The position numbers and the translations under genes are program-made. Source: Candidatus Peregrinibacteria bacterium (GTDB lineage Bacteria > Patescibacteriota > Gracilibacteria > UBA1369 > LOWO2-01-FULL-3). Taken from it: a stretch of 33,899 bases of DNA. Where the stretch lies: contig JAPLYN010000004.1 in the NCBI GenBank assembly GCA_026395515.1, forward strand, positions 1 to 33,899, read 5' to 3'. The notes under the pieces are model-generated. The model was not told the origin of the DNA. It did no database searches and saw only the letters and a list, made by a program, of their open reading frames with translations. Positions 1,510 through 24,373 of the stretch are shown in pieces. Positions within the stretch are counted from its first letter, which is position 1; each line of letters starts with the position of its first letter.

Positions 1510-1533
1510 AGAATAAAAATTAATTAATCGCTG

Positions 1534-2121
1534 CTATTTTATACCACCAAAGGCAGTCTTTTTTCTATTCAGAATTTCCACCACTCTTCCTATACAGCTA
1601 TTACAGCCAGTCCCGGCGCCAGTGACCGCGCTCAGAGATTCCAGAGTATTATGACCTTTTTCAATTGCTTCCTGAATATCCAAATCAGTCACATGGCGAC
1701 AGTGACAAATTACTGTCTCCGTAGCCTTGCGAAGTCTTTCCTTTTGCTTAGTGTTTTCAAAGTAATTTACTATCGCTTTTTTCACAGCCCTAAGCGCCGG
1801 AATTGCGAACATGTCTTGTGGATGAATATTTTCATTGAGCATAGAAAAAATATCTTTTTCTTTTAACTTCAATGCATCCTCAATAAACATTCCTCCATTT
1901 TCATTCAACATCTCTGCGAGTTTCTCGGTGTATTTGCGCAAATTATCTTCGCCTTCAAAACTCCATTTGAATTCTTCAATTGCATCAAACTCCGGAATTT
2001 CTCGGTCACGACGAACCTTAATCCAAGTTTTTATTAAAGTTTTTGCATCAGCTGATTTACTTTTGCCAAAGCCATCGCTCATGTGAGTTTCCGCTTGCTG
2101 TACTGATAATTCATAATTCAT
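1534..2121 (-). CDS. NifU-like protein: degenerate IscU-type domain plus BFD-type [2Fe-2S] domain
   Basis: A protein of about 195 residues. The C-terminal third is a BFD-like [2Fe-2S] domain with CxC (ICHC) and, 31 residues later, CxxC (GCNSC), the cysteine spacing of NifU and bacterioferritin-associated ferredoxin. The N-terminal two thirds align by eye with the IscU/NifU scaffold fold (KTWIKV, a GGMFIEDALKL segment where NifU has GKTIEEAL, and ALRAVKKAIVNY), but the three scaffold cysteines are missing. It therefore probably no longer builds clusters and may act as an electron-transfer or regulatory partner. I chose the ATG at 2121 over the one at 2148 because a perfect TATAAT box lies inside the first codons of the longer version. 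It stands first in an operon with trxB. The domain reading is mine; the BFD part is the firmer half. Confidence 0.75.
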   Translation of the reverse strand: MNYELSVQQAETHMSDGFGKSKSADAKTLIKTWIKVRRDREIPEFDAIEEFKWSFEGEDNLRKYTEKLAEMLNENGGMFIEDALKLKEKDIFSMLNENIHPQDMFAIPALRAVKKAIVNYFENTKQKERLRKATETVICHCRHVTDLDIQEAIEKGHNTLESLSAVTGAGTGCNSCIGRVVEILNRKKTAFGGIK

Positions 2122-2130
2122 GATGGCCAC

Positions 2131-2136
2131 ATTATA
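2131..2136 (-). promoter_or_regulatory. -10 box of the NifU-like/trxB operon
   Basis: A perfect TATAAT on the minus strand lies 9 nt before the ATG at 2121. Transcription would begin within about two bases of the start codon, giving an essentially leaderless mRNA. No convincing -35 was found. Confidence 0.6.
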
Positions 2137-2251
2137 ACAATTCGCCATGAAAATACCATCTTCACAACTCCATCTGTCCAGAATTTAGAAAAAATTTAAG
2201 AAAATTTTAACTTTGTTTGTTACAAATAACTCGCGTCATAGGAAATACGCA

Positions 2252-2364
2252 GAAAATAAAACTCGTAGACCCCGCTCAATGGAGATGCCCATCTACCCCA
2301 TGCTAAGCCATGGCGTCGCACGAATTGTACGACACAAACTTGAGCGGGTTAGTCTACGGATGAC
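2252..2364 (-). ncRNA. Candidate structured RNA with a cloverleaf-like fold
   Basis: Bases 2264-2270 and 2271-2279 pair perfectly with 2352-2358 and 2340-2348, giving a 16-bp closing helix with a single 3-nt bulge (2349-2351). Inside it are three hairpins: 2283-2294 (AGAT/ATCT), 2298-2313 (CCATG/CATGG) and 2315-2333 (GTCG..AC/GT..CGAC with one C-A mismatch). The minus strand is favoured because the closing helix is followed there by the U-rich tail AGTTTTATTTTCT, and a -10-like TATGGT lies just upstream at 2376-2371. I do not recognise a known RNA family. A small mobile element with terminal inverted repeats is the main alternative. Confidence 0.5.
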
Positions 2365-2390
2365 GCCACTACCATAAAAAATAATTATGC

Positions 2391-2396
2391 TATAAT
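2391..2396 (+). promoter_or_regulatory. -10 box of hicBA
   Basis: A perfect TATAAT lies 28 nt before the ATG at 2425. It overlaps the upstream ATG at 2395, which therefore cannot be the start. There is no clear -35. Confidence 0.6.
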
Positions 2397-2424
2397 GAAC
2401 ACAGTCATTTTAAAAAGATTCTCA

Positions 2425-2628
2425 ATGATAAGTTTTAAAGTCGAAAAAGATGGGGAAAAATTCCACGCTTTTTGTCCTGAACTTACAGGCTGTCATACCT
2501 TCGGAGATAATCCAGAGGAGGCCTTAAAGAATCTCAAGAATGCGGTTTCATTATATCTAGATAACGAATTGGAGGAGCAAACCTTCGATTATCTAATTAA
2601 TGAAGCCAAAAAGAATGTCAAAATATAA
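2425..2628 (+). CDS. hicB: HicB-type antitoxin, short form
   Basis: A 67-residue HicB-family protein that should bind and neutralise the HicA mRNA interferase. It shows the family's partial RNase H-like fold: an ISFKVEKDGEKFHAFCPELTG strand-rich start, the typical CPELTGCHTFGDNPEEAL turn and helix, and a short acidic C-terminus. There is no C-terminal ribbon-helix-helix or HTH domain, so it probably cannot repress DNA alone. The start at 2425 is preferred because a -10 box overlaps the upstream ATG at 2395. The order is antitoxin first, and the 3' end overlaps hicA by 14 bp, which suggests translational coupling. Confidence 0.85.
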   Translation: MISFKVEKDGEKFHAFCPELTGCHTFGDNPEEALKNLKNAVSLYLDNELEEQTFDYLINEAKKNVKI

Positions 2629-2818
2629 CCTTTCACCTCGGAAATTAATTAAACTACTCCATGAAAATGGTTTTCATTTCATTCGTCAAAATGGAAGCCA
2701 TGCTCTATTTAAAAATTTCGACAAAAATCTTAAAGTCATTGTGCCAATACACTCAAAAGATATTCCCACAGGCACTCTTCTTGCTATCTTAAAAGACGCA
2801 AAAATAAAAATTATGTAA
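2615..2818 (+). CDS. hicA: HicA-type mRNA interferase toxin
   Basis: A 67-residue HicA toxin with a double-stranded-RNA-binding-like fold that cleaves mRNA. The family hallmarks are all present: SPRKLIKLLHENGF at the start, RQNGSHALF containing the catalytic histidine, VPIHSKDIPTGTL, and the closing ILKDAKI helix. The toxin therefore looks intact. An upstream in-frame ATG at 2600 exists, but 2615 gives the normal family N-terminus. It overlaps the end of hicB and ends 60 bp before the next gene's ATG. Confidence 0.88.
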   Translation: MSKYNLSPRKLIKLLHENGFHFIRQNGSHALFKNFDKNLKVIVPIHSKDIPTGTLLAILKDAKIKIM

Positions 2819-2837
2819 TATTTCATCTCGCCCGTGG

Positions 2838-2843
2838 TATACC
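2838..2843 (+). promoter_or_regulatory. Extended -10 promoter of the secreted Lys/Ala-rich gene
   Basis: The sequence TGGTATACC, an extended -10-like motif, lies about 35 nt upstream of the ATG at 2879. The leader is A/T-rich and has no Shine-Dalgarno site. Confidence 0.4.
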
Positions 2844-2878
2844 CTCACGAAAGTTCTTAATTTTTAACAAAAATATTT

Positions 2879-3460
2879 ATGAACACTAAACGTCTAGTAT
2901 CAGTAGTAATGATTCTTGGTTTAATGGCTACCAATATGGCTCAAGCTTTTGCTGATACTATTGTTAGTACTCCAAGCGATCCAGTCACAAATTCTACAAC
3001 TGTTCAAACAGAACATAAACTTGCTAAAGAAACTCGTGATGCTGCTAAGAAAGCAGAAAAAGCAAAAAAGCAGGCAGAGAAAGATGCAAAGAAGGCTGAG
3101 CTTGCAAAGAAAAAGGAGGCTAGAGCTGCAATCAGCGCTCAAGATCTAGTTTGCATGCAAACAGCAGTAGCTATTCGTGAGACTGCTGTAGTAAGCTCTT
3201 TCGATACATACTTCACAACTTTAAAAACAGCTTTGACTACAAGAATGGATGCTTTGAAAGCTGCTTGGGCTTTGACAGATGCAACTGCTCGTCAGGAGGC
3301 TGTGAAAAAAGCTTGGAGTGACTTTGATGCTGCGATGAAAGGCGACAGGGAAACTTTAAAAACAGCGAAGAAATCTGTTTGGGATGCTTTCCAGACTAGC
3401 AAGAAAACATGTCATGCGGCTGATGACGCTAAAGATTCTAAAGACGACACAAATTTATAA
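2879..3460 (+). CDS. Secreted Lys/Ala-rich coiled-coil protein, function unknown
   Basis: A 193-residue protein with a clear Sec signal peptide (cleavage probably after AQAFA, about residue 25). A Ser/Thr-rich linker is followed by a highly charged AKKAEKAKKQAEKDAKKAEL-type helix at about residues 50-80. The C-terminal half is a predicted helical domain bounded by two cysteines (in LVCMQTA and KKTCHAA), which could form a disulfide. The protein ends in an acidic tail. It is monocistronic, with its own promoter and a terminator 30 bp downstream. It was not recognised as a named family; a secreted or envelope-associated helical-bundle protein is as far as the sequence goes. Confidence 0.75.
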   Translation: MNTKRLVSVVMILGLMATNMAQAFADTIVSTPSDPVTNSTTVQTEHKLAKETRDAAKKAEKAKKQAEKDAKKAELAKKKEARAAISAQDLVCMQTAVAIRETAVVSSFDTYFTTLKTALTTRMDALKAAWALTDATARQEAVKKAWSDFDAAMKGDRETLKTAKKSVWDAFQTSKKTCHAADDAKDSKDDTNL

Positions 3461-3491
3461 TAGAATACGAACCAATAGGGAATAGCGGAAT

Positions 3492-3523
3492 GGCCCTGAT
3501 GAAAGTCAGGGTCATTTTGTTTG
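3492..3523 (+). terminator. Rho-independent terminator
   Basis: CCCTGA (3494-3499) pairs with TCAGGG (3506-3511) around a short loop and is followed by the T-rich tract TCATTTTGTTT. It closes the Lys/Ala-rich secreted-protein gene. Confidence 0.8.
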
Positions 3524-3553
3524 ACTAATCATTAAATTTCGTTATGGTATAGC
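3521..3553 (+). promoter_or_regulatory. Promoter of the DUF1501/diheme operon
   Basis: TTGACT at 3521-3526 is followed by TATGGT at 3543-3548 (16-bp spacer) or TATAGC at 3548-3553 (21-bp spacer). The 3586 ATG follows an A/T-rich leader without a Shine-Dalgarno site. The exact -10 is uncertain. Confidence 0.45.
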
Positions 3554-3585
3554 CAATTCATACAATAATTATCTTAATACTTTAA

Positions 3586-5034
3586 ATGGCTTTAGAAGGA
3601 TCACAATCCGAATCTCAAATATGGTTTCCTCAGGGGATGGATCTTCCATTTGAGCATATGCCAAACTTGGCAGGTGCAGATCTAGAGAGACTCACTGCCG
3701 AAGTAAATGGCGAGGCTGATCCTCGTACTCTAGAAGATTCCGGAGTTTCCAGACGTACTATTTTGAAAATGATGGCAGCTGCGGCAGGTTATACACTATT
3801 CAGATCAGCTCCAGCTTATGCCGACGCACCAGCCACTCTCAATACTGGTACAGGTGGTCCAGACTACGATCCTAAGTCTGTTTTCCATATTACTATTTCT
3901 GCTGTAGGAGGAATGGATCATATTTATACGCCATATGGATGGAATGTAGCTTCGAATATTCAACAAGGTCAGCTAAAAGGTGTTCCTTCGAATTTGTTTC
4001 CGGGCGCATTTAATTTCCCTGTCACTCCAGGTGCTACACCTACAGATCATTTTTTGAACATGTACGCTAAGGAAATGCTCCTTATTCGTCAGCATCAATT
4101 AACAAATGGTCACCAACAAGGAGAATTAGAAGCCGCAGTAGGAAGTACAACTGATATGCGTATGCCAGATAATATGGCGATTTTGGCTGCTCAAGATATG
4201 CCTGGTTCTGCTTTGGCCTATGTCACAGGTGGAGGAATTACTACTTTCCCAGCTGAAGTAATTGCCCCTAGTGATTTGAGTAATCTCGATTCATTCAAAG
4301 CTCTCGCTGATCCAAATGAATTAGATCCTAAAAATCCAAATTTAAATTCAAAGGCTCTTGCTGATAAATCTTTAGCGGATGTTTATGTAAGACGTAAAAA
4401 TGAATTTGATAAACAAAGATCTAATAAGCAATTATTACCAAAAGTTCGCGCTCGTGCAGGAGAACGTTTTACTGCGCAGGGAATTAGAGACAAGATGAAT
4501 CAGTTTTTGAATATTATTGGAACTGTTCAAACAAAATATAAAAATAATCAAATGGTTGCTGGTGGAGTAATTGCCATGAATCTCTTTCAGTTAGGGCAGA
4601 CTCGAGCAGCAAAATTTGAAATGGGTGGCTATGATACTCATGGAGATCCGGCTGGTGCTCAGACTATCCAGAGAAATTTAATTTTGTACCAAAATATTCA
4701 TTTATTGAAACTTGAAGCCGCAGCTATGGGCATTCCACTTTGTATTACTGTGGAAAGTGATTTTGGCCGTATAAATATGGGATCGGGAACAGGTCTTTCT
4801 GCTCATCATGAAGTAGGACATACCATGATTATTCATCCTTATATAAATGGTCCTCGTTTAGTAGGAGTGACTGATGCAAACAAGAAACTTGCTGGAACAA
4901 ACAATGCTACTGATACTAAATATTACGAAAAAGATATTGCCGGAACAAAGGATGCAAAACTCGCCGGACATGATCTCACCTTAACTACAGTAAGCACTCA
5001 AGATGCTGTAAGAAAAGCTTTAAAAGCTGCATAA
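3586..5034 (+). CDS. DUF1501-family protein, Tat-type signal
   Basis: A 482-residue protein of the DUF1501 family, a branch of the alkaline phosphatase/sulfatase-like fold whose biochemical role is not established. A twin-arginine motif SRRTILK sits at residues 55-61, after an unusually long 54-residue hydrophilic lead. It is followed by an Ala-rich hydrophobic stretch and a likely cleavage site near SAPAYA (residue 79), so export of a folded protein is expected. Family motifs include GGYDTHGD at about 347-354 and ESDFGR at 390-395, with AHHEVGH at 406-412 where the family usually has a histidine near the end of the metal site. The next gene starts 6 bp downstream and encodes a c-type heme lipoprotein, an arrangement like planctomycete and myxobacterial DUF1501/cytochrome pairs. 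Base use is host-like, not GC-rich. Confidence 0.82.
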   Translation: MALEGSQSESQIWFPQGMDLPFEHMPNLAGADLERLTAEVNGEADPRTLEDSGVSRRTILKMMAAAAGYTLFRSAPAYADAPATLNTGTGGPDYDPKSVFHITISAVGGMDHIYTPYGWNVASNIQQGQLKGVPSNLFPGAFNFPVTPGATPTDHFLNMYAKEMLLIRQHQLTNGHQQGELEAAVGSTTDMRMPDNMAILAAQDMPGSALAYVTGGGITTFPAEVIAPSDLSNLDSFKALADPNELDPKNPNLNSKALADKSLADVYVRRKNEFDKQRSNKQLLPKVRARAGERFTAQGIRDKMNQFLNIIGTVQTKYKNNQMVAGGVIAMNLFQLGQTRAAKFEMGGYDTHGDPAGAQTIQRNLILYQNIHLLKLEAAAMGIPLCITVESDFGRINMGSGTGLSAHHEVGHTMIIHPYINGPRLVGVTDANKKLAGTNNATDTKYYEKDIAGTKDAKLAGHDLTLTTVSTQDAVRKALKAA

Positions 5035-5040
5035 AATTTT

Positions 5041-7740
5041 ATGGATAAAATAGACTTTAGATCACAACCAGACGTTCAACGAACTCCAACTAGCGTTCCA
5101 AATAAACCATGGAATTCTGGCATAATGAACACAATCTCAAAACTTCGCAGTTCTCTCGGAATGATGGCTGCATTAGGAGTGATTAGTGGAACCGCTGCCT
5201 GTGGACCTACTGGAAATTCAGATAAATTTGGAGATAGTGCACAGATGCAAGGTGATGGATGGACTGGAGATTCCGCTTCTGCCGACAATTCAGGAGGCGA
5301 TGGATCCGGCACTGACGGAGACGCAAATATCGATACGAATATTGATCCACAAACCGGTTTAGTAATTTGTGATAAACAAGATCCCCTGACAGAACAATTT
5401 TTGGGACTAAGTGAAACACTAGAACAATGTAAGGGTTGTCATACCGAGAATGGTGCTTGGAGATGGAATACTAGTTCGCCTGCAGCCTTGAAAGATTCCA
5501 TGGGTAGTTTTAGTAAATTTGCTCGTATGAGAGCCGACAATGGACAGCCGTTTATTGTCGAACTTCCTCAAGGTCAAACAACTGTTGCTGGAGTAGTTAT
5601 TAAGCACCAAGGTGGTCATCGAGATTTATCAGAATTGGATAAACAGATGCTGACTTCATATGCTGAATCTTTAGAATCACATGATGCAAAAAATGGCACG
5701 AATTCAGCACTGCCAGAAATTAATACAAATTGTAATGACGGACAATTGCATATTACTCAGGAAGAATTTTTTCAGACTGTAGAGATGCTTTCCAATCCAG
5801 AAGTTCTAGCAAAATTTCTACGTATGTTCGCTCCGAGTTTGCCTGAGAATGCTCCTAACGTAGATTCAGACGAAGCTCTTGCCGCAAATATTCGTCAAGC
5901 CACTCATACTCCGGCATTTTATAAATGGTTGGAAAATGAATTTAATTATCTTACTGGAGCTAGAAGACTTAGTGGGAAAAACGATGCGATAGATTCTTTG
6001 ACGAAAATGATTCCAAGCTTGAAGGCAAATTTAGTTGGTGCAGATAATGCTGATGTGGCCGACAGTTTGAATGACTTACTTTTGTATATTGCTTTTAATG
6101 AATTGCCACTTACAGAATTGCTCAAGGCTCAATATATTATTTTGCCTGGAGAAAAAATGAATAAGGATGATCCGAATTTCAATATTGCTGCACATTTAAT
6201 TAAAGTTCCTGTTAATGAGCCACCAATCGCTGGAATGTTTACTCATCCAGAATGGTTGCACATCAACAATTCTATGGCTTCAAATCAAGATCGTGCTCGT
6301 ACATTAAAGGCTCTGAGATTTGCGATAGATTTTGACATTCTTAGTTTAGGTGCTCAAATGACCCCGGATGACAATAAACAATACAAAGATCCGGTAACTA
6401 TTAATAATCCTGATTGTGCTGGTTGTCATAATGGAAAGGGACATATGGATCAAATCGCGCCGATATGGTCCAGATATCCAGACGTAGATGGCAAATTCGA
6501 TTCTTCGGATAATTTCAAATTTCCAGTCGATCAATTAATAGTTAGTTACAACGGACATAAAATTAATATCAACGCTAAAGATTCTGCCAGACAGTTGATG
6601 ACATTCTTAGTGCTCGATCCAGAAATGGATGAAAGCGCTCCAGATTTCAATCCTGATCGTCAGTATCCTTTTGCGCGTTCAATGTCCAAAATGGTTTATA
6701 AAATGATTACTCATAATGAACCACTTACTCGTCCTGCTGCCGGTGAGGCTAATTACGATGATAAATTATTGAGATATAATGCTGAGAGCGGATTCTTCAG
6801 AGACATGGCTAAATTTTTGAAAGCTAATAAATATAATCTTCGTGAATTGGTGATAAAAATGGTGATGAGTCCACACTTCCGCGCGAACGGAAATTTGAAT
6901 GCGACTATTACTCCTAATAGAGAAATTCAATTAGAAAATGTTGGTCCAAATTTAATTACGCCTGAAGAATTGGATGTGCGTTTGCATCAATTATTTGGTG
7001 ATGATATTTTTAAATTAGGCATTCACCAAATGGTAATGAAAGATCATTTTGTGGAACTCGGAGGTAGTGATCCTTTGGTTGGAAATAAACGTAATTCTAC
7101 AGGTGATTCTAGTAAAGAATTAGCTCTCAATGCTGTGGCTTTCAAATGTGGAGCTGCTGTGGTTTCTGATCTTTCGAAAGCCCCTGCAGACAGAAAGATT
7201 TTCAATGCATTAACTGGTGGCGCAATTCAAGATTTGAAACCAAAAGTAAATTTTGAGGATGTAGATACTATTCCAGAAGTTGAATTCCAAATGCGTCAGG
7301 TTTTTGTGAGAATTAGACATTTGGCTCTTGGACAATTTAAATTGAGCACAAATGATAAATTGATTGATCAGGATTTCAAGAAATGGTTGGAAATGTGGGC
7401 CCAATACAAAGATGATTTGGGTAGTAAACAAGTTGCTACATTACAACAAAGTGGAAACATAAAAGGGGATCCATATGGAGTAATTCGTACTTGGGAAGCT
7501 TTCATGGTTGATTTGATAGCTAGTTCAAAATTTTATTTTAGTTCACCGGTAGATGATAATACTGAATCAAAGAATGATATTCCAACATTTATGTTGAAGG
7601 CTATGGACGGTGCTCCAGAATCTGTTCATGAAATGGTTGCCGAACATAATGAAAGAGCTGCCAGAGAAATTGTCAGAAAAGAATTGGAAAAAATAGTTAG
7701 TCACTTACTTGCTGGAGGCGAATTAGAAGTTGCAGCTTAA
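5041..7740 (+). CDS. Large exported lipoprotein with two c-type heme motifs
   Basis: An 899-residue protein. A hydrophobic segment at residues 38-53 ends in a lipobox-like TAAC (Cys54). The ATG at 5125 (residue 29) would give a standard-length lipoprotein signal and may be the true start; the ATG at 5041 lies 6 bp after the DUF1501 stop. After Cys54 comes a Gly/Asp/Ser-rich linker of about 45 residues. Two covalent-heme motifs are visible, CKGCH at 130-134 and CAGCH at 459-463. Later segments (about 540-620, with KMVYKMITHNEP and ELVIKMVMSPHFRANG) resemble the layout of DUF1588/DUF1592-type cytochrome proteins of Planctomycetota and Myxococcota. That family link is a resemblance by eye. It probably works at the cell surface with the DUF1501 protein. 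A diheme protein is unexpected in a reduced genome, because heme supply and cytochrome c maturation would be required. Confidence 0.75.
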   Translation: MDKIDFRSQPDVQRTPTSVPNKPWNSGIMNTISKLRSSLGMMAALGVISGTAACGPTGNSDKFGDSAQMQGDGWTGDSASADNSGGDGSGTDGDANIDTNIDPQTGLVICDKQDPLTEQFLGLSETLEQCKGCHTENGAWRWNTSSPAALKDSMGSFSKFARMRADNGQPFIVELPQGQTTVAGVVIKHQGGHRDLSELDKQMLTSYAESLESHDAKNGTNSALPEINTNCNDGQLHITQEEFFQTVEMLSNPEVLAKFLRMFAPSLPENAPNVDSDEALAANIRQATHTPAFYKWLENEFNYLTGARRLSGKNDAIDSLTKMIPSLKANLVGADNADVADSLNDLLLYIAFNELPLTELLKAQYIILPGEKMNKDDPNFNIAAHLIKVPVNEPPIAGMFTHPEWLHINNSMASNQDRARTLKALRFAIDFDILSLGAQMTPDDNKQYKDPVTINNPDCAGCHNGKGHMDQIAPIWSRYPDVDGKFDSSDNFKFPVDQLIVSYNGHKININAKDSARQLMTFLVLDPEMDESAPDFNPDRQYPFARSMSKMVYKMITHNEPLTRPAAGEANYDDKLLRYNAESGFFRDMAKFLKANKYNLRELVIKMVMSPHFRANGNLNATITPNREIQLENVGPNLITPEELDVRLHQLFGDDIFKLGIHQMVMKDHFVELGGSDPLVGNKRNSTGDSSKELALNAVAFKCGAAVVSDLSKAPADRKIFNALTGGAIQDLKPKVNFEDVDTIPEVEFQMRQVFVRIRHLALGQFKLSTNDKLIDQDFKKWLEMWAQYKDDLGSKQVATLQQSGNIKGDPYGVIRTWEAFMVDLIASSKFYFSSPVDDNTESKNDIPTFMLKAMDGAPESVHEMVAEHNERAAREIVRKELEKIVSHLLAGGELEVAA

Positions 7741-7846
7741 TTTCAGGCATGGCTAAAAACTGTGCACGCAAAAAGGACCGAGCGCACGGCGCGAGGGCAC
7801 AACGAAAAAATGTGGCAAAGAAAAAGACAACTCGCAAGGTGTATGG

Positions 7847-7917
7847 CTTTTCCTGGGTACTTGTCGAATGAGGTACCCGATTTATTAGTGGGTCCTTGGT
7901 CGAACGACCTGGAAAAA
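7847..7917. other. Inverted-repeat cluster folding as a three-way junction
   Basis: TTTTCC (7848-7853) pairs with GGAAAA (7911-7916). It encloses two hairpins, GGGTAC/GTACCC (7855-7860 with 7873-7878) and GGTCG/CGACC (7898-7902 with 7905-7909, 2-nt loop). All arms are perfect. It could be part of an RNA or the 3' end of the diheme gene's transcript; the strand is unclear. Confidence 0.45.
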
Positions 7918-7950
7918 GTTTTTGAATTTTATAAATTTTGGGAAATGGAC

Positions 7951-7994
7951 GAAGGGGGCCGGCCGCGGACGCTTGAAATGCGGCCGGCCCCTTC
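7951..7994. repeat. All-GC 12-bp hairpin
   Basis: GGGGCCGGCCGC (7955-7966) pairs perfectly with GCGGCCGGCCCC (7980-7991) around a 13-nt loop. GAA/TTC extends the stem past one bulged G at 7954. Neither side carries a good T tract, so it is not a typical intrinsic terminator. It could still stop convergent transcription from the diheme gene and the cysteine-rich gene. Confidence 0.7.
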
Positions 7995-8101
7995 TCCATT
8001 CTCAGCTCTACGCTCAGAAGTGTTGGCTATTGTGAGATGAGTCACCAACACTCCTGACTTTGCAGCTCAAGCTCCGAAGAAATGGAGCGAGCTTACTGGA
8101 C

Positions 8102-10348
8102 CTATGGCTTCCAGTAGATTTTGAAAGGTTGCCCGTTCTTGGCGGGAAAGCTCTTCGTGAGGACTCCAGGACCCTTCGGCGGCAGGGTATCCCAGACCAG
8201 GAACGCCCAGTATTGTGGGGCGCTATCTATCTTTTCTTTCGTCGTGTTACCAGATGCACCTTGGACCCAGACATTGATCTCACCACCTAACTGCGAGGTG
8301 GTGGTGAAAGTGGCGGAGACTGAGACTGAGACCTCCGCACACTTCAGCAAGTACGGCTTACCGGCCACAGGCACAGGCAGGTTCTGCGCAGAGTTCGGCT
8401 TGTCGGCAGTGTAGAAATCCACCGTAGCCCCGTCATACTGCGCCGAAACATAGATCACGATGGCGGGCTTGTCAGGGCCGCACTCGCTATCCTGGCAGTC
8501 GATCTTGCCGTCGCCGTCGTTGTCCACGCCGTCGCCGCAGATCTCACCGAACCCACATCCCACGATTGTCGTGTGGGAGCAGGTGCCGGTTTTGTCGCAG
8601 GCGTCCGTCGTGCACGGATCGCCATCGTCACACTTCAGTCCAGTCCCACTCGCGCAGGTACCGGCCGAGCAGACGTCGTTCACCGTGCACGCATTGCCGT
8701 CGTCGCATGCCGCGGTGTTGTTGATGAACTTGCACAGGCCCGACGTAGGGTCACACGAATCGTCGGTGCAAGGGTTCTTATCGTCACACACGATCTTCAC
8801 GTGCGTGCAGTTCGCCGGCGGAGTCCCGCTATCGAACGTACACGCATCGCTATCCGCGCATGCTGGATTCGAAACCTTGCAGCTTCCTGCCAGGCAGATG
8901 CCGTTGCCGTTGCAGACCGTCCCCGAGGTGGAGAGGTTTACGCAACCGCCGGCCTGCTTGTCGCACGAGTCCGCCGTGCAGGAGTTGCCGTCATTGCAGT
9001 TCATCGCAGGTCCGCCAATGCAGATCCCGCTTACTCCGCACTGGTCGTTGGTCGTGCAGAAATTGCCATCGTCGCACGCCGCGCCAGCCATTGGAGAGTA
9101 CACGCAGCCCTTGGTCGGGTCACACGTGTCGTCCGTGCAGGGATTGTTGTCGTCGCAGACGGGAGCTACCCCGCCTACGCAGACACCTGACGAACACTTA
9201 TCGCCTAGAGTACACGCGTCGCCGTCATTGCATGCGCTCAAATTATCCGTGTGGACGCAGCCGTTGAGCTTGTCACACGTATCCTTCGTGCAGCCGTTCT
9301 GATCGTCGCAGCTTACCGGTATGTACGTGCACTTCACGCCACTTGCCGGATCGCCCGCGTCTTCGGTACAGGCATTGTTGTCGTCGCACGGCGTGAGGGG
9401 CTTGATTCCCGCACACACGCCGTCCGCTCCGCACACGTCACCCTTGGTGGTCTGATCTCCGTCATTGCACGGAGTACCAGCCATAGAGGCATGCTTGCAT
9501 CCCGTATCGGGGCTACAAGAATCCTTAGTACAAGGATTTGCATCGTCGCAGTCTTTCGCTACCGTACCCGCAGAGCAAGAGCCGTTCTGGCACTTATCGC
9601 CCGTGTGACACATGTCGCCGTCTTCGCAGCTCGACGCATTGTTCACATAGCTGCACTTACCGCTCGTCATATCGCACGAGTCGGTGGTGCAGGGGTTCTG
9701 ATCATTGCACTCGATCACCTTGAACACGCAGCCCTTCGCGGAATCGCAGGAATCTGTCGTGCAAAGGTTGTTGTCGTTGCAGAGCTTGGCAGTACCGGGC
9801 AAACATGCCCCGGCCGTACATTTGTCGCCCGTCGTGCACGCATCGCCATCGTCGCACGGCAGGAGATTGTTCACATGCTTGCAGCCGTCGCCAGCTTGCA
9901 GCGGATCGCACACGTCGGTGGTGCAGTCGTTGCCGTCCGAGCAGTACGTCTGGCCTGAGCCCACGCACATACCCGAAACGCACAAATCACCAGTCGTGCA
10001 CTTGTTTCCGTCGTCACACGCGTCTCCATCGGACTTCTGCGTGTGCGAGCACGAGCCATCGGCGTTCAGAACGTCGACAGTGCAGCTGTTCTGGTCGTCG
10101 CAGGGAGTTGAAGCCCCGTCGACGCCTTCGCTGCGACCATCGCCATCGTCCGTCACGCCGTCGGCCTTGCTGAACACGTCACTACAGCCACCATCACCAC
10201 CGCCGTCGCCGCACAAGGCGTCGCCGTCGTTGGCATGAATGTTGGATGACGTGTTCCCACCTTCGTCTCCACAACTCGCCAATGCGAGAGTGGCGGCCAG
10301 CAGGAGGGCGCTGGCCCATTTCGGATTTCTACTCATCGTGAACCTCAC
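8102..10348 (-). CDS. Cysteine-rich repeat lipoprotein, myxobacterial style, GC-rich
   Basis: A 748-residue lipoprotein. The signal peptide ends in the lipobox LASC (Cys26), followed by a Gly/Asp-rich linker to about residue 82. Residues 83-598 hold 20 tandem units of about 25 residues starting CDDxNxCT, alternating between a DGNACTTGDKC type and a DxNPCTTDSCD type; two units (starting CNDGDQTT and CNGNGIC) are degenerate. Residues about 599-625 contain DNDGDG with nearby cysteines, like the MopE-type metal-binding motif. About 120 residues of probable beta structure close the protein. Such repeats are typical of Myxococcota surface proteins. The gene is clearly more GC-rich than its neighbours and is the only one here with a good Shine-Dalgarno site (GAGG, 8 nt before the ATG). 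Horizontal transfer is likely; an assembly join is the alternative. Function is unknown; adhesion or metal binding is a guess. Confidence 0.85.
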   Translation of the reverse strand: MRFTMSRNPKWASALLLAATLALASCGDEGGNTSSNIHANDGDALCGDGGGDGGCSDVFSKADGVTDDGDGRSEGVDGASTPCDDQNSCTVDVLNADGSCSHTQKSDGDACDDGNKCTTGDLCVSGMCVGSGQTYCSDGNDCTTDVCDPLQAGDGCKHVNNLLPCDDGDACTTGDKCTAGACLPGTAKLCNDNNLCTTDSCDSAKGCVFKVIECNDQNPCTTDSCDMTSGKCSYVNNASSCEDGDMCHTGDKCQNGSCSAGTVAKDCDDANPCTKDSCSPDTGCKHASMAGTPCNDGDQTTKGDVCGADGVCAGIKPLTPCDDNNACTEDAGDPASGVKCTYIPVSCDDQNGCTKDTCDKLNGCVHTDNLSACNDGDACTLGDKCSSGVCVGGVAPVCDDNNPCTDDTCDPTKGCVYSPMAGAACDDGNFCTTNDQCGVSGICIGGPAMNCNDGNSCTADSCDKQAGGCVNLSTSGTVCNGNGICLAGSCKVSNPACADSDACTFDSGTPPANCTHVKIVCDDKNPCTDDSCDPTSGLCKFINNTAACDDGNACTVNDVCSAGTCASGTGLKCDDGDPCTTDACDKTGTCSHTTIVGCGFGEICGDGVDNDGDGKIDCQDSECGPDKPAIVIYVSAQYDGATVDFYTADKPNSAQNLPVPVAGKPYLLKCAEVSVSVSATFTTTSQLGGEINVWVQGASGNTTKEKIDSAPQYWAFLVWDTLPPKGPGVLTKSFPAKNGQPFKIYWKP

Positions 10349-10582
10349 TTAACCCCAGCCCTTTCGGCGCGTGGGGAATTGTTTGGCCTAGACACAGAGA
10401 TCGAGAACGAATGTCCCCGAAACCTCTCTATGCTAGCCGGTTCGCCTCTAGATAGATGCATGCATTTTGAAGGTTTAGCTACTACCCTCAACTTACATAT
10501 ACCTCTCCAGACACTTACGGATTCTTCAGTTGTTACCAACTTTCAGGACCGTCGACATGAAGGCAATAAGTAAAGTCTAGAA
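10349..10582. other. Upstream region of the cysteine-rich gene, no gene seen
   Basis: GC content falls from the island level to the host level across this stretch. I see no coding frame worth calling. It should contain the minus-strand promoter of the cysteine-rich gene, but no convincing -35/-10 pair stands out. Confidence 0.4.
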
Positions 10583-10866
10583 TCTCAAAAACTGCCCGCT
10601 TTTGAATGTGATTCTGAAACTTACATTACCTTCATGATCGACAGCCCTGAAGAGTCGAAACACTAAAACATAAAAATATAAAATTCAAATTACAGCGCAT
10701 TAAAGCACTGTATTACCTTGCGAGTTGTTAAGGAACATCTAACCTTAACTACTTAGTCAGTCCTCAACCCGTCTCAAAGATTTTTGATAAGACAGGGAGA
10801 ATTGACCTCGTCAGAGGTCCATGAACGATCGCATTAAGCGGGCAGCCAATGGACAGTAAAGATTAG
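10583..10866 (-). ncRNA. Candidate structured non-coding RNA, about 280 nt
   Basis: A 10-bp perfect closing helix joins CTGCCCGCTT (10592-10601) and AAGCGGGCAG (10836-10845). Inside are at least five hairpins: 10804-10819 (GACCTC/GAGGTC), 10768-10797 (CCC.GTCT/AGAC.GGG, topped by TCAAA/TTTGA), 10727-10749 (GTTAAGG/CCTTAAC), 10691-10712 (TACAG.GC/GC.CTGTA) and 10638-10658 (TCGAC/GTCGA). On the minus strand a TTGACA/17 bp/TATTGT promoter would start transcription near 10866. There the closing helix is followed at once by TTTTT (10591-10587), as in an intrinsic terminator. No open frame of note lies inside. It lacks the tRNA-like end of tmRNA and the conserved core of RNase P RNA, and it is not a single long hairpin like 6S RNA. 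The family is unidentified. Confidence 0.65.
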
Positions 10867-10872
10867 AGAGTG

Positions 10873-10901
10873 ACAATACATAAAAACTACGTGTTTGTCA
10901 A
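10873..10901 (-). promoter_or_regulatory. Promoter of the candidate ncRNA
   Basis: On the minus strand TTGACA (10901-10896) is followed after exactly 17 bp by TATTGT (10878-10873). Predicted initiation is near 10866, about 20 nt before the closing helix of the RNA. No open reading frame follows, which fits an RNA gene. Confidence 0.65.
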
Positions 10902-11035
10902 TGGAAGGATACGTTGGCTTCCAGATTACATTACATAAGAAAATTGCGAGCACACGGTGCGAGCGCGCAGCAAGCGAAGAGAGTGGCTTTGCCACCGATG
11001 AGTGAAGCGAGCTTATCAAGAATTTTGGGAAAGAA

Positions 11036-11064
11036 AAAACCCGCCTTGCGGCGGGCTTTTTCCC
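11036..11064 (-). terminator. Bidirectional rho-independent terminator
   Basis: The hairpin CCCGCC/GGCGGG with a TTGC loop is flanked by an A run on the left and a T run on the right, so it can end transcription in either direction. It lies about 50 bp after the stop of the minus-strand SLH gene. Confidence 0.9.
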
Positions 11065-11110
11065 CTCATTCCTATGAAAAATGTCATTCGTACTAAAATT
11101 GAATCTTAGA

Positions 11111-24296: not shown

Positions 24297-24373
24297 TGGT
24301 GGGTCTGCCTGGACTTGAACCAGGGACCAATCGGTTATGAGCCGACTGCTCTAACCAGCTGAGCTACAGACCC
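24297..24373 (-). tRNA. tRNA with CAU anticodon (Ile2 or elongator Met), encoded CCA
   Basis: Read on the minus strand it gives a perfect 7-bp acceptor stem (GGGTCTG/CAGACCC), a D arm TAGCTCAGCTGGTTAGAGCA, anticodon loop CTCATAA, a TTGGTC variable loop, a T arm CCTGG/CCAGG with TTCAAGT, discriminator A and an encoded CCA (24299-24297). The anticodon is CAT. The anticodon-stem sequence and variable loop look more like tRNA-Ile2 (lysidine-modified) than elongator Met, but sequence alone does not settle it. It is not initiator tRNA, because the acceptor stem begins with a normal G-C pair. Confidence 0.93.

Follow-up and report, generated by a model that had tools for sequence, protein, structure and literature searches.

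The slhB-trxB locus and the GC-rich lipoprotein gene

The window, which is the whole stretch of 33,899 nt that was analysed, contains an island between the terminator of a gene with an S-layer domain (slhB) and trxB. A gene on the minus strand at 8102-10336 encodes a Cys-rich lipoprotein of 744 amino acids with Dicty_CTDC repeats, and has 60% GC and a third-position GC of 0.72, compared to 0.21-0.38 for the other genes of the window. The slhB-trxB interval (1510-11110) is an insertion hot spot, where some genomes carry islands of differing lipoprotein genes and others have near-empty sites (L060, L062, L063). In G019, G009 and G023 slhB adjoins trxB directly or is separated from it by no more than a small ferredoxin-like gene, and neither a leader nor a GC-rich gene is present. 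The idea that the whole island is GC-rich and acquired was rejected, since the genes at 3586-7740 have a host-like third-position GC of 0.24-0.26. These form a two-gene cluster on the plus strand (3586-5034 and 5041-7740) that has no Pfam match and is conserved in the genus, the first protein having a Tat-like signal. A repeat that is GC-rich and some 80 nt long, with 71-89% identity between its occurrences, lies in or beside the islands at this locus in three genomes (window 10935-11022; L033 6735-6806 and 6810-6894; L056 6377-6452) and is absent from the corresponding place in G002.

The third-position GC of the lipoprotein gene stays at 0.72-0.76 despite a protein identity of only 55-67% (G000, L032, L033), in genomes that are AT-rich. 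Its high GC looks maintained rather than recent, as the proteins of G000, the genome of the window, and G003 are 55% identical and are still encoded with these values. Cys-rich exported proteins of Peribacteria are known to be strain-variable and are reported to be weakly similar to Myxococcus Cys-rich repeats (PMC4736985).

A structured RNA upstream of the lipoprotein gene

The stretch at 10583-10901 had been described in an earlier note as an independent RNA gene of about 280 nt with its own promoter and a terminator-like end, beside a GC-rich gene. Comparison with related sequences indicates that it is very probably the 5' part of a leader of about 530 nt that belongs to the GC-rich lipoprotein gene, and a member of a multi-copy family of 5' leader RNAs. 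That the RNA is structured was confirmed: the stretch folds with an MFE of -99.1 kcal/mol (z -6.0) and none of 100 shuffles folded equally well, and entire leaders fold at z -3.8 to -12.6 in shuffle comparisons across the copies. The predicted promoter is also there, as a sigma-70-type TTGACA-17-TATTGT on the minus strand (10873-10901), which would place the transcription start near 10866. The several internal hairpins are present, and so are the 10-bp helix and the UUUUU that directly follows it.

The proposed length and 3' boundary did not hold. Because conservation and folding continue beyond 10583, the leader is longer than 280 nt; as delimited by fold and conservation it runs on the minus strand from about 10866, the probable start, to 10337, with 519 nt from the P1 hairpin to the ATG. 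Its 3' limit is the Shine-Dalgarno of the lipoprotein gene, whose start codon is at 10336, and both the second strand of a long hairpin and a covarying 3' domain conserved in the genus fall outside 10583-10901. A terminator scan of 10583-10600 was empty and the U run is not kept in the G024, G004 and G021 copies. A stand-alone small RNA with a terminator was rejected, as no terminator was found at the proposed end.

Searches with Rfam covariance models, including raiA, ROOL, GOLLD and OLE, gave no family at threshold in 10583-10901 and, at gathering and permissive thresholds, nothing credible for the element. This agrees with the earlier view that it is not a tmRNA, RNase P RNA, 6S or SRP RNA. 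The sole gathering-level match in the window was a tRNA at 24300-24373, and the RNase P RNA is encoded elsewhere in the same genome. An origin as a group I or group II intron had no Rfam support either.

Copies of the leader in other genomes

Altogether 14 copies were identified in 11 Peribacteria genomes from two families, with no more than three per genome. Among 60 relatives searched at the DNA level, two of the same genus had a syntenic homologue, G002 (97%) and G003 (79%). Their downstream proteins have diverged far more than the RNA, to 67% and 55% identity, respectively. With a covariance model for the 5' core, a copy was detected at the same locus of another genus (G024), and an unfiltered search yielded one copy in G004 and two further ones in the G024 island, each upstream of another lipoprotein gene. 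Five copies, from which long inserts had been removed by hand, served to build a second covariance model, which confirmed the third G024 copy and added G021 (two copies), G017, G028, G020 and G036, the latter from another family. The matches of this model outside its training set had E values of 8e-9 to 4e-5, and under strict filters matches with E<=0.01 were present in 9 of the 353 genomes of the class. The G010 copy was recognised by hand, with GCCUGCAA in the P1 loop pairing with UUGCAGGC in P3. We excluded G018, which gave a weak match (0.02), and G007, whose leader contains the motif CUUUGAAAACUCGC exactly but shows no clear P1, from the count of 14. Matches in G039, inside an arginyl-tRNA-synthetase-like ORF, and in G067, to a pattern lacking matching context, were taken as chance. 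A DNA search of plasmids and a scan of viral contigs found none, and in GTDB contigs the exact core was detected in no genomes other than the two relatives already known.

The homologous leaders thus show the conservation and covariation that the earlier note had suggested looking for in relatives. It was right that a GC-rich gene adjoins the element, but the gene is not a mere neighbour, nor is the element an independent RNA gene: all 14 copies are 5' leaders of such a gene. The leaders have 38-49% GC, and each is followed on the same strand by an ORF of 57-65% GC with a third-position GC of 0.62-0.82. A lipobox was recognised by eye in 13 of the 14 downstream genes. Many of the proteins are Cys-rich, and five of those scanned have Pfam Dicty_CTDC or DUF4215 repeats. 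In G024 three copies precede three different genes, and the copies G036:C1, G021:C4 and G017:C53 lie outside the locus seen in the window.

Conserved structure of the leader

The promoter, TTGAC(A/T)-16/18-TAnnnT, ends 16-18 nt before P1 in 12 of the 14 copies; the exceptions are G036, with a distance of 29 nt, and G021:C4, with an imperfect -10. P1 consists of a 6-bp stem and a loop of 25-27 nt in every copy (in the window 10817-10854, minus strand, GUCCAU:AUGGAC with a 26-nt loop). Its stem shows many compensatory changes, and as many as four different pairs occur at a single position. Standard pairs filled 78 of 78 cells in 13 copies and none of 20000 strand shuffles reached 78, with helices delimited by eye or hand, which favours pairing. 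A descriptor combining promoter, stem, loop length and AUG, composed after the copies were already known, matched 13 copies but no other site in 314 kb, and had no match on the reversed sequence. All copies but one, G010, have the AUG, which keeps its place in the P1 loop (13 of 14). In the window it would begin a possible upstream ORF, MRSFMDL (10811-10834, minus strand), and the peptides from this AUG have 5-38 codons and are not conserved between copies.

The 10-bp helix that had been regarded as closing the RNA is instead a kissing (loop-loop) pseudoknot, formed by CUGCCCGCUU inside the P1 loop (10836-10845) and AAGCGGGCAG in the apical loop of P3 (10592-10601), both on the minus strand. 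In seven copies it pairs in 61 of 70 cells with covariation, and 55 of 20000 shuffles reached 61, where the hand-drawn helix limits again favour pairing. In an independent test, the longest stretch elsewhere in the leader that is perfectly complementary to the P1 loop gave p 0.002-0.035 in six copies of the kissing type. The pseudoknot needs a mismatch in G003 and a G-U pair in G004, and this complement test on whole leaders found no clear pseudoknot of the kissing type in the remaining copies. By sequence comparison, roughly half of the copies have a loop-loop pseudoknot.

Between P1 and P3, folding predicts a hairpin P2, GGUCAAUUCUCCCUGUCUU ... GACGGGUUGAGGACUGACU (10756-10807, minus strand), the size of which differs among copies. 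P3 is a long imperfect hairpin, UCAGGGCUGUCGAUCAUGAAGGUAAU ... AUUGCCUUCAUGUCGACGGUCCUGA (10543-10650, minus strand), with compensatory changes between G000, G024 and G004. The 3' domain of hairpins (10347-10542, minus strand) extends to the Shine-Dalgarno of the gene and has double changes in 9 pairs; its conservation with covariation is confined to the genus, and G024 has a different 3' domain.

A boxA-like motif in the leader

A strongly conserved motif located after P1 in most copies resembles boxA, a signal that assists RNA polymerase in the synthesis of rRNA. In the window it reads GUUCCUUAACAACUCGC (10720-10736, minus strand) and matches GYTCTTTAANA, the published boxA consensus (PMC5725501), at 10 of 11 positions (p 0.023 in its own leader). 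Among 15 leaders, which include G007 and G018, one scored 11/11, five 10/11, four 9/11 and five 7-8/11. A shuffle test on 13 leaders gave a Fisher p of 2.6e-4, with the related copies G000 and G003 both included and the match to boxA having been noticed only after the motif had been seen. The conserved motif extends beyond the length of boxA (ACUCGC), and in G000 the boxA-like part is predicted to be able to pair within a hairpin.

The rrn leaders of the same genomes have GUUCUUUAACAUCUAG between promoter and 16S, and a segment of the type GUUCUUUAACA lies upstream of 16S in all six genomes for which a 16S 5' flank was available; this segment can pair with the 16S trailer as well. In L095, L096, L097 and L098, CUUUAACAUCUAGAAUGUAAUAGAGAA of the rrn leader has its complement, UUCUCUAUUACAUUCUGGAUGUUAAGG, in the region after 16S, so that the boxA-like core overlaps the leader-trailer helix. 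As the segment also lies in this helix, we only infer that it is boxA. NusB (TIGR01951, above cut-off) was found in all 14 genomes tested, including G000. The RNA-binding domain of Rho (PF07497) was found in none of 14 Peribacteria genomes, including G000, while 9 of 14 controls were positive. Antitermination against Rho is therefore disfavoured, and if the leader makes polymerase resistant, it is unlikely to be resistance to Rho.

Discussion

Comparison of the copies establishes, at the level of sequence, the promoter, P1, the pseudoknot in about half of the copies, the motif, P3 and the tie to GC-rich lipoprotein genes. The explanation that we favour, held tentatively and at a little under an even chance, is a cis-acting Nus/boxA leader that would promote elongation by RNA polymerase through GC-rich genes or past intrinsic hairpins. 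It is favoured because of the boxA-like motif, the similar segment in the rrn leaders, the presence of NusB in every genome tested and the precedent of lambda N, where boxA-type complexes resist intrinsic terminators and pausing (PMC10250234). The leader and the gene for the GC-rich secreted lipoprotein would be transcribed together from the sigma-70-type promoter, and NusB-S10 together with the other Nus factors would be loaded onto RNA polymerase by the motif, acting as boxA. The P1/P3 fold may present boxA or add contacts, and the polymerase so modified would read through the long GC-rich gene, neither pausing nor terminating at intrinsic hairpins. Against boxA count the five leaders with only 7-8/11, the lack of the pseudoknot in several copies and the missing Rho RNA-binding domain, which removes the best-known role of boxA.

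A leader that acts on translation or mRNA stability is unlikely. Here P1 would protect the message or hold a ribosome, and translation from the P1-loop AUG would open P1 and the pseudoknot and so couple to expression of the gene. The fixed AUG with an AGG-like sequence upstream, the strong Shine-Dalgarno and gene start downstream and the very stable leader fit such a role, but the variable peptides do not, and the AUG, which G010 lacks, may be kept for structure. Rather unlikely, too, is a riboswitch-like or protein-sensing leader, in which a P1-P3 kissing-loop aptamer would bind a metabolite, an ion or a protein and control translation or early transcription, with the motif being part of the pocket and not boxA. 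The constant P1 loop with its invariant features, the loop-loop pseudoknot and the strongly conserved single-stranded motif are typical of aptamers; however, no conserved expression platform (terminator or sequestered Shine-Dalgarno) was seen, the genera do not share the 3' part, the pseudoknot is missing from several copies and the best motif fits boxA.

The two remaining explanations separate the RNA-like stretch from the gene. The own promoter and strong fold would suit a stand-alone small RNA of about 280 nt that lies next to the gene through synteny only, but this is very improbable given the missing terminator, the structure and conservation that run on to the gene start and the same-strand GC-rich gene after every copy, with three different genes in G024. 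It is extremely improbable that the palindromes are merely RNA-like and mark an insertion or recombination site of the gene island. The locus is indeed a hot spot for insertions, and relatives have empty sites there, but copies occur at other places (G036:C1, G021:C4, G017:C53), the changes obey RNA pairing rules including G-U, and the orientation of promoter and gene is identical in every copy.

Going beyond the Nus/boxA leader itself, Peribacteria without Rho may have a dedicated Nus-factor regulon for surface proteins, although this is doubtful. A portable promoter-plus-leader would give an rRNA-type, pause-resistant polymerase, by which an AT-rich cell could transcribe fast-changing GC-rich lipoprotein genes without these losing their high GC. 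If the motif is boxA, this would be a Nus-factor regulon outside rRNA in organisms apparently lacking Rho, and a role of boxA where there is no Rho to resist becomes testable. Regulatory RNAs described from candidate-phyla bacteria are few, and this leader adds a cis-acting family that occurs in multiple copies. Its hosts are tiny lake bacteria, and the foreign-looking GC-rich genes that it precedes encode variable lipoproteins of the surface, by which cells may attach to others. The leader may control the transcription of these variable surface genes.

The leader is a new RNA family; in the openly licensed literature on noncoding RNA, structured RNA or riboswitches of Peribacteria or Patescibacteria we found no description of it. 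Lambda nut, put and EAR/LoaP are processive antitermination RNAs, cis-acting leaders before genes whose full-length transcription they favour. The Peribacteria leader may be analogous, as it precedes genes that it would help to transcribe in full length, but it differs in having no phage N protein context and no Rfam match to such families. With the large structured bacterial RNAs raiA, ROOL, GOLLD and OLE it shares a long, strongly folded RNA with a pseudoknot, whereas it has no Rfam match, does not stand alone and is a leader of protein genes in all copies. Many of the downstream genes resemble the class of Cys-rich exported proteins reported for Peribacteria (PMC4736985), the available part of which does not mention an RNA leader. 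The boxA leaders of rRNA operons, suhB and ParE-like mRNAs are alike in having a boxA-like motif soon after the promoter and NusB in the same genomes, but a P1/P3 kissing fold is not described for them in the available parts of PMC5725501 and PMC10250234. The Peribacteria leader differs from them also in preceding GC-rich lipoprotein genes, in genomes where no Rho RNA-binding domain was found, and in that its Nus binding is putative. If the motif is boxA, the leader would be a new version of these known leader elements.
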